Source: Victivallaceae bacterium (GTDB lineage: Bacteria > Verrucomicrobiota > Lentisphaeria > Victivallales > Victivallaceae). From it: a stretch of DNA of 47,414 nt. A program made the translations under genes and the position numbers. The notes below the pieces were generated by a model that did no database searches, was not told where the DNA came from, and saw only the letters and a list, made by a program, of their open reading frames with translations. The stretch spans positions 1-47,414 of the forward strand of contig JAQULZ010000006.1 in the NCBI GenBank assembly GCA_028718375.1, written 5' to 3'. Positions 26,157 to 32,632 of this stretch are shown here, piece by piece (within the stretch, counting starts at the first letter, position 1; each line of letters opens with the position of its first letter).

Positions 26157-28727
26157 CTAAGGGGCGGTCGCAGCCTTGCAGGCCCCGGCCGTAACATACA
26201 CCCCTTTGGCGTCGGTAAAATACTTTTTCAGCACGGCGTTGACTTGTTTCAAGTTCAACTGCCGGATGATTTCCGGAATCCGCCAGGGAGTTTCACAGCC
26301 GTTGCCGTAAAATTCTTCGAGCACGGAGTTGAACAGCAGCGCGCTGTTATTGCTCATCAGCGAAGCATAATTGAATTCCACCCGGGCCCGGGCGGAGTCG
26401 AATTCCTCCTGCGACAGGCCGGTACCGGCCAGGCGGCGGCGTTCTTCGGTCAAAAGTTCGATCACCTGCGGCACTGAACCGCGCTTCGTTCCCGCGTAGA
26501 ACGCGATGAAGCCGGGATATAACCCGTTGCCGAACATCGCTCCGGTACTGTAAGCCAGCCCCCGGTCTTCGCGGATCACTTTGAACAGATTGGAAGACAA
26601 ACCGTTGAGCGCCTGCTGCAGGATTTCAAAAGTGAAACGGTCGGGTGAATGGTAATCGCAGGTCGGTACCGCGTAAATGACTTTGATCTGATCGCGCGGC
26701 AGTTCGATTTCCGCGCGTAAGTCCTCGCGGGGAAATGCCGGGGCGGGAGGCAGCTTCAGCGTTGCCGGGTCATTCCAGCGGATAGCTGCGTCCAGATCGG
26801 CGGCGGCGCGGTGGGCGGTTTTGACTTCGAGATCGCCGGCGATACCGATGACGGTGCGGGGCGCGATGAATTGCCGGCGGTAGAATTTTCTGAGTTTTCC
26901 GGCGGTAAGGGCGGCGAGCGAGCTCAGGCTGCCGTCGCGCGGCAGGGCGTGGGGATGGCCGCGGTAAAGCAGTTCGTACATTTTATCGACGGCCGAGCTG
27001 CCCGGATCCTGGGCTTTGGTTTTGAGTATTTCCAGGGCATTGTGCCGTTCCCGGACGAATTGTTTGGGTCTGAACGCCGGTTCGGCAAGGACGGATTTGA
27101 GCAGTTGAAGCGCCAGGTCCAGCTTATCGCGCAGGCAGTTGAGTTTGATGAAAAAGGTGCTGGTACCGGCGTTGACACTGAAATCCAGCGCGTTATCGTC
27201 AATTAAGGCGTTGAATTTTTCCTCCCCGTAACTCCGGGTGCCGGTGGTCAGAAGTTGTGCGGTCAAACGGGAAATGCCCGCATTTTCCGGGGTTTCAATA
27301 AGGTTCCCGCCGAGCGTCAGCACGCAAAGGTCGATCAGCGGAAAACTGGAATCCGGTACCGTTATCAGCCGGGCGCCGGACGGCAGGACGGATCGGTGCG
27401 CGGGTTTGCGTCTGGCCTTGGGGCGGTTGGCGGCCGCGTTTTTTCCGGCTTCGGGGGGAAGCTGGCGGACGATACTCAACTGTTCCCGGGTCAGATATTT
27501 GTTGGCGATTTCCAGAATGTCGTCCCGGTTCACTCGGTTCAGCCGCCGGAGATAATGATCCGCCATGCCGGGATCACCGTAGGCCAGGACGGCATCGCCG
27601 ATCACGCCGGCAATGCCGTTATTGGAACGGAGTACCCGCACATAATCCGCCAGCTGCTGATTTTTTTCCCGTTCCAGCTCTCCGGCTGTAACGCCGTTTC
27701 TGCAGAATTTTTCCAGCTCCTCAAACAGCGCGGTTTCCAGCGCCGGGAGTTTGGCGGGAGCGGTTGCGGCGGAAATAGCTGAAATCCCGCTGAAATTAGG
27801 AGCGTAGGTGAACGAACCGGCGGCGATCGCCAGTTCCTTTTCCTGCTGCAGGACCCGGACCAGGCGGGCGCTCTTGCCCTGACCGAGAATTGCGGAAATA
27901 AGGTCGAGAGCGGGAATATCCGGGTGGGCCAGCGCCGGAATCCGGGCGGCGACTGCCAGCCGGGCCAGCGGATCGGCGAAAAAACAGTTGTTCGAGCGAA
28001 ACCCGATTTGCGGCGGTTCTTCGGGGAGCGGCGGTTCATAGATATTGCCGTGCCGCCAGGACGCCAGGCGCTTTTCGACCATTTCCAGTACCGCCGGGAC
28101 CCGGATGTCCCCGGAAATCACGAAAAACGTCCGTTCCGGAGAATAACGCTGCTCGTAATACTGGCACATAAGATCGCGGCTGACCTGTTCAATCTTTTCA
28201 TGATACCCGATGATCGGATGGCGTACCGGGTGCCGGAGAAAGACGGTTTTCCACAACCTTTCCCCCAGCATGGATTCGGGACGGTCGCGCCCCAGATCGC
28301 GTTCCCGCAGGATCACGTCCTTTTCGGACAGGAATTTAGCCTCGGGAAATTCCGGAGAACTGAGCATCCGGCTGAGGATGTCGATGCCGGTTTCAGTATG
28401 TTCGGAGGGCAGGTTGAGATAATAAACGGTATGGTCGTAAGAGGTATAGGCATTGACGCTGCCGCCCAGCCGGCTGACGGTGTCGGCGGCGGCCTGTCCC
28501 GGATAGCCGTCGCAGCCCTGGAACAGCATATGTTCGAGAAAATGCGCCAGGCCGCAGCCCAGGAAACCGGCTTCATGAACGCTGCCGGTGGCGACGAAGC
28601 AATGCAGCGAAACCGTCGGCGCATCGGGTTTGGTGTTGACGAAGAGGCGCAGACCGTTATCCAGGGAGAAGGTGTGAATCCGGGAAAAATAATCGCCGCG
28701 GAACGGATTGGAATGCGGTTCAGTCAA
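26157..28727 (-). CDS. M16 (pitrilysin-like) zinc peptidase, two-domain form
   Basis: About 856 residues. The first M16 domain contains the inverted zinc motif HFLEH (residues 62-66 from the chosen start) and the downstream Glu region ILRERDLGRDRPESMLGERLW; the second domain (from about 430) lacks the motif, the usual active/inactive pairing. Substrates are short peptides, and bacterial relatives process or degrade peptides in the periplasm or cytosol. No signal peptide is evident. I place the start at TTG 28727, which overlaps the stop of the Minf_1886 gene in an ATTGACTGA arrangement with AAGG upstream. An in-frame ATG at 28826 would overlap that gene by 107 bp and add basic, non-domain sequence. 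Confidence 0.88.
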   Translation of the reverse strand: MTEPHSNPFRGDYFSRIHTFSLDNGLRLFVNTKPDAPTVSLHCFVATGSVHEAGFLGCGLAHFLEHMLFQGCDGYPGQAAADTVSRLGGSVNAYTSYDHTVYYLNLPSEHTETGIDILSRMLSSPEFPEAKFLSEKDVILRERDLGRDRPESMLGERLWKTVFLRHPVRHPIIGYHEKIEQVSRDLMCQYYEQRYSPERTFFVISGDIRVPAVLEMVEKRLASWRHGNIYEPPLPEEPPQIGFRSNNCFFADPLARLAVAARIPALAHPDIPALDLISAILGQGKSARLVRVLQQEKELAIAAGSFTYAPNFSGISAISAATAPAKLPALETALFEELEKFCRNGVTAGELEREKNQQLADYVRVLRSNNGIAGVIGDAVLAYGDPGMADHYLRRLNRVNRDDILEIANKYLTREQLSIVRQLPPEAGKNAAANRPKARRKPAHRSVLPSGARLITVPDSSFPLIDLCVLTLGGNLIETPENAGISRLTAQLLTTGTRSYGEEKFNALIDDNALDFSVNAGTSTFFIKLNCLRDKLDLALQLLKSVLAEPAFRPKQFVRERHNALEILKTKAQDPGSSAVDKMYELLYRGHPHALPRDGSLSSLAALTAGKLRKFYRRQFIAPRTVIGIAGDLEVKTAHRAAADLDAAIRWNDPATLKLPPAPAFPREDLRAEIELPRDQIKVIYAVPTCDYHSPDRFTFEILQQALNGLSSNLFKVIREDRGLAYSTGAMFGNGLYPGFIAFYAGTKRGSVPQVIELLTEERRRLAGTGLSQEEFDSARARVEFNYASLMSNNSALLFNSVLEEFYGNGCETPWRIPEIIRQLNLKQVNAVLKKYFTDAKGVYVTAGACKAATAP

Positions 28728-29121
28728 TGGTAGGTACCTTAATTTGCGGCGTTTGTCGCCTGGACGCCGGGGAATGCGCCAGGGCAAATAAGTCATAATC
28801 GGTGTTGAAGTCCTCGATCGAATCATGCGTGTCAGCGCCTAAGACCCGGTGGTCTACCAGGGCGAAAACGATATTGCCGATGTCCGCAGCAGTGTTAATG
28901 CCCCAGGATTTTAAAATGTCCTCGTAAAAGATGCTGTATTCCTTCAGCGCGAACTCGGAAACCCCGGCGAGCAGTTCGCGGGCATGGATGTGTCCGGCCG
29001 GGTTTTTAGCAGCGGCGGCGTAGTTGACTGCGGCGTTGACGAATTTATAAGCCTCCCGGCTGTATCGCGGTTCGCGGCTTACGATTGATTCGATTATTTG
29101 CTGTAGTTCATTATTCAACAT
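28720..29121 (-). CDS. Minf_1886 family protein
   Basis: A 133-residue protein resembling the Minf_1886 family, named from a Methylacidiphilum gene and common in PVC bacteria. It starts MLNNELQQIIESIVSREPRY and includes AYKFVNAAVNYA, HIHARELLAGVSEFALKEYS and the long helical WGINTAADIGNIVFALVDH. No catalytic motif is known and its role is undetermined. It looks cytosolic and mostly helical. I chose the ATG at 29121, where the family similarity begins; an upstream ATG at 29199 adds 26 unrelated residues. Its end overlaps the M16 peptidase start, and rex lies 86 bp upstream, so the three may form an operon. Confidence 0.85.
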   Translation of the reverse strand: MLNNELQQIIESIVSREPRYSREAYKFVNAAVNYAAAAKNPAGHIHARELLAGVSEFALKEYSIFYEDILKSWGINTAADIGNIVFALVDHRVLGADTHDSIEDFNTDYDLFALAHSPASRRQTPQIKVPTID

Positions 29122-29207: not shown

Positions 29208-29876
29208 TTAAAGCAATTGATTTCGTTTCTGCTGCAGCTTAACGGAAAAAACAGCCAGGCCACCGGCGAGGTTTTCGTTATGGCAGACGATCTCGGGCGG
29301 GGTCTTCAATTTGACCATGGAAAAATTCCAGATTCCCCAGATTCCCGCCTCAATCAGAATGTCGGCGACCTCCTGAGCGGCCTGCCAGGGCACGGTGATG
29401 ATTCCGACTTTAACTCCCATGCGTTGCACCATTTCCTTCAGTTTTGACAGGTGAAATATTTTTTTGCCGTGAATGACCTTGCCGACCCGTTCCGGGTCAA
29501 TATCGAAGCCGGCGATGATTTTCAGGCCGTTTTCTTCAAACGGCTTATGCCCCAGCAGGGCCGAACCCAACGCGCCGGCGCCGATCAGAAACGCTTCATC
29601 GACCTTGTTCCAGCCGAGAAAATCCTCAATTGCCTTGATCAGATCATCCAGACAGTAGCCGGTGCGCGGTTTGCCCGGAAGGCCCATCAGCACCAAATCT
29701 TTTCTGACCAGGATAGGTTTGAAATCGAGTTCGTTAATCAGCGCGGTCGTGGAAACATATTCCTGGCCTTCCGCCTTCAGGCGCTTCAAAATATGCAGAT
29801 AGGTAGGCAGGCGCTTGATGGTGGGCAAACGCAGTATTTTGTCATTATGCTCTTTGGTTTCAGAATTTCCCGTCAT
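29208..29876 (-). CDS. rex: redox-sensing transcriptional repressor Rex
   Basis: A 222-residue repressor that reads the NADH/NAD+ ratio. The N-terminal winged helix is RLPTYLHILKRLKAEGQEYVS followed by LVRKDLVLMGLPGKPRTGY. The Rossmann domain has the dinucleotide motif FLIGAGALGSALL, then IIAGFDIDPERVG and the C-terminal helix that swaps between subunits. Rex typically represses fermentative and respiratory genes when NADH is low, which fits an anaerobic or facultative lifestyle. The ATG at 29876 has AGGA just upstream; an earlier ATG at 29960 adds 28 residues with no domain match. Confidence 0.94.
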   Translation of the reverse strand: MTGNSETKEHNDKILRLPTIKRLPTYLHILKRLKAEGQEYVSTTALINELDFKPILVRKDLVLMGLPGKPRTGYCLDDLIKAIEDFLGWNKVDEAFLIGAGALGSALLGHKPFEENGLKIIAGFDIDPERVGKVIHGKKIFHLSKLKEMVQRMGVKVGIITVPWQAAQEVADILIEAGIWGIWNFSMVKLKTPPEIVCHNENLAGGLAVFSVKLQQKRNQLL

Positions 29877-30037
29877 TATCCTGTCCCTGCGGCGAAGGTG
29901 CTTTTTTACTAGGAGAAAACCTATCCCCCCTATAATAACACAATAGCCGCTGAAACTCAATAGTCAAGAAAGATGGAGAGCTAATATTAATAAAAAAATA
30001 TATTATATATCATAGATTCACTCCCGTTACAGTTCGC

Positions 30038-30124: not shown

Positions 30125-30787
30125 ATGATGAAAGCAGTTTTATTTGGTGTCATCGGGGCCGCGGTCCTGAATCTGGCGGCGCTGGACCTCACCACGGTTG
30201 ATGGAAAAGTTTATAAAAACGTCCAGATAACCAATGTTCTTCCTAATGCAGTCGGATTTTTCTATACCGATAAAAACGGCGTTACCGTTTTGCGCGATAT
30301 CGCCCTGACTTCCCTCACCGAAGATTTACGGAAAAAATTCAATTATTCGTCGGAAAAAGCGAAAATCTTTGAACGGCAGGTCGCCGTGTTCCAGTCGGAA
30401 CGCGCGAAACTCCTGGAAAAACAGCGGCAGGAAAACCTGGCATTGTTTCAGCAGCAGAAAAAATTCGCCAGGGAATTGGATGCCGTGAAAGCCCTGCTTT
30501 ACTGTCATCGTGTTTCCTGCTGGGTCCATATAGTTCGTCCGGTCGGGACTACGGACTGCATCGGCAAGGTCAGCCTGCCTGGGGCTACTGATAAATACGG
30601 CAATCTGGGTACTTTCTATGTCCGCAATCTGACCGGGCCGCAAAATGACCTGCTGCCCGCCGTTATTTATCCTACCGGGAAAAGCGTATCTCTTCAGGAC
30701 GGGATTTTTCCCATATACGATGCCGATTTCAATAAATATGCCCTGGAATTGGTACAGCAGCGGGAAAATTCATCGGGCGGGGACTGA
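30125..30787 (+). CDS. secreted protein of unknown function (PVC type)
   Basis: A 220-residue protein with an N-terminal signal peptide (MMKAVLFGVIGAAVLNLAA). The mature start, LDLTTVDGKVYKNVQIT, continues to GFFYTDKNGVTVLRDIALTSL. This compact beta segment recurs at the front of many Verrucomicrobiota and Lentisphaerota secreted proteins. A charged coiled coil follows (about 75-125), then a C-terminal part with two Cys (YCHRVSCWVHIVRP) and GTFYVRNLTGPQNDLLPA. No enzyme signature is seen, and the role is unknown. AAGGAG precedes the ATG. It leads the run of a PBP-like gene and a SEDS gene downstream, about 40 bp apart. Confidence 0.75.
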   Translation: MMKAVLFGVIGAAVLNLAALDLTTVDGKVYKNVQITNVLPNAVGFFYTDKNGVTVLRDIALTSLTEDLRKKFNYSSEKAKIFERQVAVFQSERAKLLEKQRQENLALFQQQKKFARELDAVKALLYCHRVSCWVHIVRPVGTTDCIGKVSLPGATDKYGNLGTFYVRNLTGPQNDLLPAVIYPTGKSVSLQDGIFPIYDADFNKYALELVQQRENSSGGD

Positions 30788-30827: not shown

Positions 30828-31520
30828 ATGCTGGATAACCGGGCATTCAGGAAACGGGCAGACCTTATTGTCTTAGGCTTCGCGGTATGGGGCGCGATAA
30901 GTATCGGGGTGTTTTTTTATTATGCCGTGATCGCCCGGGAGCAATATATTCAGCTCGGCAATAAACTTGCCCGGCGCGAAATTACCTACTACCCTGAACG
31001 GGCCCGGATACTCGATAAGAACGGAGTCGTCCTGGCGTGGAGCGAGAAATATTACGACTTGTATTACATCGATATCCTGGGTTCGCCGAAACGAACGAAA
31101 ATGATTTTGGGAGAAGTCATGGAACTGCTGCCCAACCTGGAGGAACCGGTTTCCGGGACGGTGTATTCGGTAATCTTCCGTAGTTTGCAGCCGGCCCAGA
31201 TTATGGCGCTGGAAAAAACGGTTTATCGCTTCCAGGAACTCCAGATAATGCCCCGTATTGAACGGAAAGCGGTTAATTATCCGGAAATCCGGGCCTATCT
31301 GGGGCAGGTGAAATCGGTCAGCGGCCGGCTGCTCGGCGTCAGCGGGCTCGAAAAGCAATATAACGTTACTTTGAGCGGAATTCCCGGTCGTTACCGGGTA
31401 ATGCTCGACCGGAATAAGAACTGGATTAAAGATTCAGGTGAATTGCTGCGGCCGGCAGTGCCGGGAAAAGAGCTGCAGTTGCCGTTAACCCTGGAAGAAA
31501 TTCGTACGAGGCATCCGTGA
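30828..31520 (+). CDS. PBP2/FtsI-like dimerisation-domain protein without transpeptidase domain
   Basis: A 230-residue bitopic protein. A membrane segment lies at about 13-33, then comes the N-terminal module of class B penicillin-binding proteins: ERARILDKNGVVLAWSEKYYDLYY, the YPEIRAYLGQVKSVSG segment and GVSGLEKQYNVTLSGIPG, matching the PBP dimerisation domain up to the point where the transpeptidase domain normally begins. The SxxK, SxN and KTG motifs are absent because the protein ends there (ELQLPLTLEEIRTRHP). The stop overlaps the GTG start of the SEDS gene by four bases. It may serve as a non-catalytic activator of the SEDS polymerase. A shortened ancestral PBP is the alternative, but the coupled overlap argues for a maintained gene. 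Confidence 0.8.
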   Translation: MLDNRAFRKRADLIVLGFAVWGAISIGVFFYYAVIAREQYIQLGNKLARREITYYPERARILDKNGVVLAWSEKYYDLYYIDILGSPKRTKMILGEVMELLPNLEEPVSGTVYSVIFRSLQPAQIMALEKTVYRFQELQIMPRIERKAVNYPEIRAYLGQVKSVSGRLLGVSGLEKQYNVTLSGIPGRYRVMLDRNKNWIKDSGELLRPAVPGKELQLPLTLEEIRTRHP

Positions 31521-32632
31521 ACAGGACAAAAAAATCCGACCATCAAATCTTCAACACCATCGTGCTGGTGCAGAGTCTGCTGTTCCTGTTGTGTATCTGG
31601 GGGTGTCTGGCTATTTACAATTCCAATACCCTGGGGGCGTCGCCGCTTTATTTCGTCAGCCGCCAGTTGCTCTGGATGATTATAGGCCTGGTATTGATGC
31701 TTGCGGCTCAGCGCGTTCCTTTTCGTTTCTATCGTGAACACGCCCCGGTTTTTGCCGCCGGCGCTTATATTTCACTGGTGGCGGTACTGCTCTGGGGCAC
31801 CCGGATCAACGGCATGTGCGGCTGGTTCACTTTCGGCTGGACTTCAGCCTCCATCCAGCCTTCGGAGTTTGCCAAACCGTTTTTCATCCTCCTGCTTTGC
31901 CATTTGGCCGGCAACGGGCGGAATGATTTCAAGACCTTCATGCTGCTGGCGTTGATGACCTTGTTATGGGTGATCCCGATTCTGCTTGAGCCTGATGCCG
32001 GGACCGCGGCGGTTTATCTGCTGGCTTTTGGAGTAACGGCTTTTCTGGCAGGTGCGCCGGTCAAATATCTGCTGGCGCTTCCCGCTCTGCTGACGCCGGC
32101 TGCGGTCTGGATGATTTACGCCCATCCGTACATCCTCAGACGGTTTTCCGGGTTCTGGAATCCGGCGAGCGATCCGCTGGGCAGCGGCTGGCATATCCGG
32201 CAGTTCCAGTTCACTCTGGCGCGCGGCGGCTGGTTCGGAGTAAAAATGGGCAAGGCAGCCTGGGCGAATTCTTATCTGCCGCTGGCGCACAGCGATTCGG
32301 TTTTTGCGACGGTCGCCGAATCGCTTGGATTTGCCGGTACTTTGCCGGTAATCCTGATTTTTGCGATCATCATTTTTGCCTTATACCGGATTACCCGGCA
32401 GTTGCAAAGTGAATACCAGAAATTGTTCATCGTGGGAATGCTGGCGATGATTGCCGTTCAGACTTTGATTCATGTCAGCGTGAATGTGGCATTGTTGCCG
32501 CCGACCGGATTGACTTTGCCGTTACTGAGTTACGGCGGCAGTTCGCTGTTATCGACTCTGCTGGCATTCGGGATAATTTTGAGCGCGATGGATTATCATC
32601 CGACCGAGGAACGACGCGATCATTACACTTGA
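31517..32632 (+). CDS. SEDS peptidoglycan glycosyltransferase (FtsW/RodA/SpoVE family)
   Basis: A 371-residue ten-helix membrane enzyme that polymerises lipid II into glycan strands. Recognisable parts are WFTFGWTSASIQPSEFAKP (family signature), ILLEPDAGTAAVYL, LGSGWHIRQFQFTLARGGWFG, the catalytic-loop Asp in LPLAHSDSVFATVAESLGF and the late TLPLLSYGGSSLL motif. Which of FtsW, RodA or SpoVE it is cannot be fixed by sequence alone; the pairing with a PBP2-like module favours RodA. It starts at GTG 31517, overlapping the PBP-like gene, so both are made together. SEDS enzymes usually need a full class B PBP partner, which is not in this operon. Confidence 0.9.
   Translation: MNRTKKSDHQIFNTIVLVQSLLFLLCIWGCLAIYNSNTLGASPLYFVSRQLLWMIIGLVLMLAAQRVPFRFYREHAPVFAAGAYISLVAVLLWGTRINGMCGWFTFGWTSASIQPSEFAKPFFILLLCHLAGNGRNDFKTFMLLALMTLLWVIPILLEPDAGTAAVYLLAFGVTAFLAGAPVKYLLALPALLTPAAVWMIYAHPYILRRFSGFWNPASDPLGSGWHIRQFQFTLARGGWFGVKMGKAAWANSYLPLAHSDSVFATVAESLGFAGTLPVILIFAIIIFALYRITRQLQSEYQKLFIVGMLAMIAVQTLIHVSVNVALLPPTGLTLPLLSYGGSSLLSTLLAFGIILSAMDYHPTEERRDHYT

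Follow-up and report, generated by a model that had tools for sequence, protein, structure and literature searches.

Closest described systems

SEDS polymerases are thought to pair with transpeptidases, and their activation by the pedestal of the partner has been inferred from mutants. The closest described systems are RodA-PBP2 (MrdB-MrdA), the elongation synthase, and FtsW-FtsI, acting with FtsQLB and encoded in the dcw cluster. Activation by the pedestal through extracellular loop 4 is supported for both RodA-PBP2 and FtsWI (PMC8078798, PMC6207328). In Bacillus subtilis, the non-PBP activator RagB is reported to stimulate a SEDS polymerase (PMC12457691).

The window analyzed here, a whole stretch of 47,414 nucleotides from a Victivallaceae bacterium (GCA_028718375.1, contig JAQULZ010000006.1), encodes a SEDS glycosyltransferase belonging to a third lineage (SEDS3) next to a class B PBP-like pedestal protein without a transpeptidase domain (the short protein). 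Like RodA-PBP2, this is a SEDS protein with an adjacent, overlapping pedestal-protein gene; the best NCBIfam match of the short protein is pbp2_mrdA (TIGR03423, only model positions 6-233 of 593), and its fold matches the E. coli PBP2 pedestal. Unlike RodA-PBP2, it lacks the transpeptidase, both proteins branch apart from RodA and PBP2, and a separate RodA and an mreC-mreD-PBP2 cluster are present in the genome besides the pair. FtsW-FtsI is resembled in the gene order of many families, mraZ2-small single-pass transmembrane protein-pedestal-SEDS being comparable to mraZ-(mraW)-ftsL-ftsI...ftsW, and SEDS3 scores slightly higher with the NCBIfam model of ftsW (TIGR02614, 261 versus a cut-off of 337.5) than with that of rodA (TIGR02210, 234 versus 336.7), both scores being below the cut-off. 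The differences are the missing transpeptidase, a small protein without a Pfam match, and the existence of separate canonical ftsW-murG and mraZ-mraW-ftsI loci in the genome. With RagB the short protein may share the role of a partner stimulating a SEDS protein, but it is a pedestal homologue and has a SEDS lineage of its own.

Both halves of the pair are known folds. A search of the open-access literature yielded no earlier description of a class B PBP that lacks its transpeptidase and has a SEDS protein as partner, nor of such a dedicated partner with a SEDS lineage of its own throughout a class.

Organization of the gene pair

The short protein (30828..31520, forward strand, ATG start) comprises 230 aa and has one membrane helix. 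Its N-terminal helix with the membrane anchor (residues 4-35, 30837..30932, forward strand) is evidenced by the AlphaFold2 model and by a hydrophobic stretch following basic residues. The pedestal, or PBP dimerization module (residues 55-200, 30990..31427, forward strand), was identified by a match to PBP_dimer (PF03717, 2.9e-12), while the transpeptidase domain PF00905 was not found in this protein by Pfam. The protein stops at the stretch corresponding to residues 247-262 of E. coli PBP2, before the catalytic Ser330 is reached and at the point at which a transpeptidase domain would be expected to start. Of the features defining class B PBPs, it thus has the transmembrane segment and the pedestal module and lacks the transpeptidase with its catalytic Ser, as the first-pass annotation had described it. 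Residues R58, R146, E175, L182, and G184 are invariant across 55 sequences.

An AlphaFold2 model of the short protein, built with 55 homologues, has a pLDDT of 94.9. In Foldseek searches it matched the pedestals of class B PBPs (PBP2, PBP3, and FtsI), including those in the PBP2-MreC complex of Helicobacter pylori, in the FtsWIQBL complex of Pseudomonas aeruginosa, and in RodA-PBP2 of Thermus thermophilus and E. coli; the TMq with E. coli PBP2 (6g9f) was 0.63.

SEDS3 (31517..32632, forward strand, GTG start) comprises 371 aa and matches FTSW_RODA_SPOVE (PF01098) with an E-value of 2.3e-76 and 257.6 bits, against a curated cut-off of 26.4. The TGA stop of the short gene and the GTG start of SEDS3 overlap in the bases GTGA (31517..31520, forward strand), in agreement with the initial annotation. 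That annotation took the overlap as an argument against recent decay. The absence of decay is borne out by class-wide orthologues, but the overlap itself is weak evidence, since a start at this -4 position is available in only 37/73 short-SEDS3 pairs. The strong evidence is the conservation of the short form.

At one relative's locus (L189), the short and SEDS3 genes share a reading frame, with a single TAA and eight codons between them. For modelling, this stop was read as Gly to give a single chain, and the alignment was bridged with in-frame read-through pairs. The resulting model has a pLDDT of 87 and a pTM of 0.72, and its halves match the SEDS and PBP pedestal folds. The pTM exceeds what the SEDS half alone would give, which weakly hints at a fixed arrangement of the two proteins in the model.

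Canonical SEDS and PBP genes in the genome

The genome is a MAG-like assembly of 206 contigs, 87% complete. It contains three SEDS genes, three PBP_dimer proteins and only two PF00905 matches, both within full-length PBPs in which PBP_dimer is present as well. At this completeness neither a stray transpeptidase domain nor a class A PBP was detected; one candidate LD-transpeptidase (YkuD) is present. Gene context, read from translations, places ftsW-murG on contig C103, mraZ-mraW-ftsI followed by a Mur ligase on contig C75, mreC-mreD-PBP2 on contig C2, and RodA, also identified by the SEDS tree, on contig C31. This complete canonical FtsW/FtsI and RodA/PBP2 set, overlooked by the first-pass annotation, indicates that the pair in the window is a third system and not the sole RodA or FtsW pair.

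Distribution and linkage

In a search with the single sequence, the short form was found in 95/149 relatives, mostly as open frames of approximately 200-300 aa. When 388 genomes from across the phylum were searched with a profile and the result table was counted by hand, short forms were detected in 83 genomes, the present one included, all of them in class Lentisphaeria (families f1-f7, f9-f11, and f14-f17). In approximately 256 genomes outside the class no short form was found, and only full-length PBPs were among the matches listed there. In 73 of the 83 distinct loci, SEDS3 is the same-strand neighbour of the short gene, which agrees with the earlier proposal of a dedicated non-catalytic SEDS partner. 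Queries with the transpeptidase domains of E. coli PBP2 and FtsI gave no match at the relatives' loci tested, and no full-length PBP occupies the position of the short gene among the relatives examined. A peptide-pattern scan of contigs of named organisms yielded only 5 loci, three in Victivallales or Victivallaceae MAGs and one in a Lentisphaerae MAG; the distribution was therefore taken from the whole-genome searches.

The two genes also co-occur. Among genomes at least 90% complete, at least three SEDS genes are present in 43/45 genomes with the short form versus 5/25 without it (Fisher test, 6e-11), a descriptive comparison of related genomes made with no correction for phylogeny. Where the short gene is unlinked, SEDS3 is usually found elsewhere in the genome (G018, G030, G082, G089, and G142), and both are jointly absent from G009, G034, G043, G104, G084, and G091. 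The exception is genus g50 of family f10 (G138 and G147, loci L052 and L053), in which the short protein is present without SEDS3. In G138, a genome of three contigs, a single SEDS gene was detected.

Class A PBPs are missing from most of the Victivallales sampled outside genus g41 (G104, G108-G112, and others). That genus does encode one and is without the short/SEDS3 pair; it is possible that in this one genus the class A PBP replaced the pair. A link between the short form and the absence of class A PBPs (5/13 versus 40/57 good genomes, read by hand) was set aside and not used, because it is largely driven by g41.

Phylogeny of SEDS3 and the short protein

In a maximum-likelihood tree built from 77 SEDS proteins, SEDS3 is separated by a branch with 100% support from the FtsW-like and RodA-like paralogues, which join FtsW and RodA of E. 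coli. Forming a clade of its own and scoring below both equivalog cut-offs, SEDS3 is not classified as an orthologue of either protein. The pedestal tree likewise places all full-length PBP2 and FtsI proteins, those of E. coli included, together at 100%, apart from all 55 short forms. SEDS3 is marked by Asp262-Ser263 and His321, numbered as in RodA of E. coli, where FtsW and RodA have Asp-Phe/Leu and Asn. With a wider sample of the class added, the sole exception to this signature is the SEDS3 of locus L196, which retains the Ser and His and has lost the Asp.

Active-site region of SEDS3

The putative catalytic Asp noted in the first-pass annotation is D260 (codon 32294..32296, forward strand), aligned to D262 of E. 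coli RodA. This residue of the fourth extracellular loop, equivalent to FtsW D297, is present in 63/63 sequences of the main SEDS3 clade. It is followed in the same 63/63 by the diagnostic Ser, a position occupied by Phe or Leu in FtsW and RodA. In E. coli RodA numbering, SEDS3 also keeps W102, Q111, E114, K117, D159, and R210 along with D262.

Other positions invariant in FtsW and RodA are changed throughout the main SEDS3 clade: A99 to Met, R101 to Gly, G236 to Ala or Ser, F263 to Ser, and N321 to His. Several of these fixed substitutions fall in the extracellular loops forming the active site, a feature overlooked in the first-pass annotation. R101 of RodA is proposed to contact the pyrophosphate of lipid II, and its replacement by Ala lowers activity in E. 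coli (PMC10449877). At the equivalent positions of E. coli FtsW, R137H (RodA R101) and A135T/V (RodA A99) are dominant-negative (PMC8765783). The fixed R101G and A99M substitutions make the activity of SEDS3 on lipid II uncertain.

Another position of interest is A234, where the substitution A234T in RodA bypasses the Rod regulators (PMC8078798, PMC6207328). In the SEDS3 of the window it is occupied by Thr233 (codon 32213..32215, forward strand, by alignment). Thr occurs naturally there in 35/63 SEDS3 proteins, the window's included (29/53 in one alignment), versus Ala in 24/24 canonical sequences. Judged by its sequence, SEDS3 seems to be a strongly constrained enzyme in which the extracellular part of the active site has been altered. 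The SEDS3 encoded beside the short gene at L196 (1450-2592) has Gly at the positions of both the catalytic Asp and R210 and is possibly a pseudo-enzyme.

Neighbourhood and the mraZ2 cassette

Many families share the gene order mraZ2, a gene for a single-helix membrane protein of approximately 90 aa, short gene, and SEDS3. The product of mraZ2 was recognized as MraZ by Pfam. It is present at 36 and the small protein at 29 of the 83 loci, many of which have short flanks. The order resembles mraZ-mraW-ftsL-ftsI...ftsW, and the cassette may therefore have originated as a duplicated, stripped-down dcw cluster. Pfam recognized no domain in the small protein, for which the name FtsL was therefore dropped.

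In the present genome, mraZ2 and a gene for an 84-aa single-helix membrane protein are found 29 bp apart on contig C24 (L205, 1148-2136), unlinked from the pair in the window. They complete the ancestral cassette, this mraZ2 being the second MraZ paralogue of the genome. In this part of the family the pair is preceded instead by a gene for a conserved 220-aa protein with a probable signal peptide (30125..30787, forward strand), for which no convincing Pfam match was found. Similar open reading frames lie upstream of the short gene at L010-L015, L019, and L021, in several genera.

Proposed function and alternatives

The most probable reading, to which we assign a probability of about 0.66, is that SEDS3 is a third SEDS polymerase, activated by a non-catalytic pedestal protein dedicated to it, and that other enzymes take care of cross-linking. 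With its N-terminal helix anchored in the inner membrane, the short protein would bind SEDS3 and hold it in the active state via extracellular loop 4, as PBP2 does for RodA and FtsI for FtsW, here with no transpeptidase attached. The substrate polymerized by SEDS3 would then be a lipid-linked glycan, with lipid II the likeliest. As its partner carries no transpeptidase, the polymerase is proposed to work without a built-in cross-linker, and any cross-linking would be performed in trans by FtsI, PBP2, or an LD-transpeptidase. What the analysis shows is the conservation, domain content, separate lineages, linkage and co-occurrence of the two proteins, the intact putative Asp, and the predicted fold; binding, activation, substrate, the lack of coupled cross-linking, and the cellular role are inferred. 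Counting against this reading are the fixed R101G and A99M, the short protein without SEDS3 in g50, and the replacement of Asp by Gly at L196.

Throughout the class Lentisphaeria, a pedestal without a transpeptidase has been retained together with a SEDS protein of its own, as an ancient third pair besides the two usual wall-building pairs. Nature thereby offers a test of whether the pedestal is enough for activation when cross-linking is absent, and the pair suggests that synthesis of the wall polymer is separable from cross-linking. SEDS3 is also a candidate beta-lactam-indifferent synthase in hosts most of which, among those sampled, lack class A PBPs. More tentatively, MraZ2, the small membrane protein, the short protein, and SEDS3 could together make an uncross-linked glycan, either naked peptidoglycan or another lipid-linked polymer; in the latter variant, the remodelled extracellular loops would select the polymer.

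The main rival, which we consider unlikely, is that the lipid-linked glycan polymerized or transferred by SEDS3 and its pedestal partner is not ordinary peptidoglycan. The transpeptidase, whose loss is fixed across the class, would then have been lost because the product has no stem peptides to cross-link. The clade-fixed A99M, R101G, F263S, N321H, and G236A, several of them in extracellular loops and one at the proposed pyrophosphate contact (PMC10449877), are consistent with such a change of substrate. The retention of the core catalytic and substrate residues from W102 to D262 argues against it, and so does the mraZ paralogue that comes first in the cassettes of many families, as it suggests membership in the division and cell-wall regulon.

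It is still less probable that the short protein is mainly a regulator competing with or tuning PBP2 or FtsI at RodA or FtsW, with SEDS3 having a regulatory or flippase-like role. Its persistence without SEDS3 in g50 and the loss of the catalytic Asp at L196 would fit this role, but adjacency to SEDS3 in 73/83 loci, joint presence or absence elsewhere, and the otherwise conserved Asp argue against it.

That the short protein is one half of a split PBP, with the transpeptidase encoded as a separate polypeptide, is very improbable and was rejected: no supporting point was found, and both PF00905 matches belong to full-length PBPs with none standing alone, which is strong although not absolute evidence in an 87% complete genome. 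Decay or mis-assembly of a full-length PBP, for which nothing speaks except the missing domain itself, is refuted by the orthologues: 83 genomes of the phylum sample, all from Lentisphaeria, carry this short frame, no transpeptidase match was obtained at the loci tested, and the short forms are a separate lineage in the pedestal tree.

Other genes in the window

On the strand opposite to the short and SEDS3 genes, the window encodes a Rex-like redox repressor (29208-29960) with PF06971 and CoA_binding (PF02629) domains. The same strand carries a gene for an 889-aa protein (26157-28826) with an HFLEH (HxxEH) motif, which is probably a two-part M16 peptidase.
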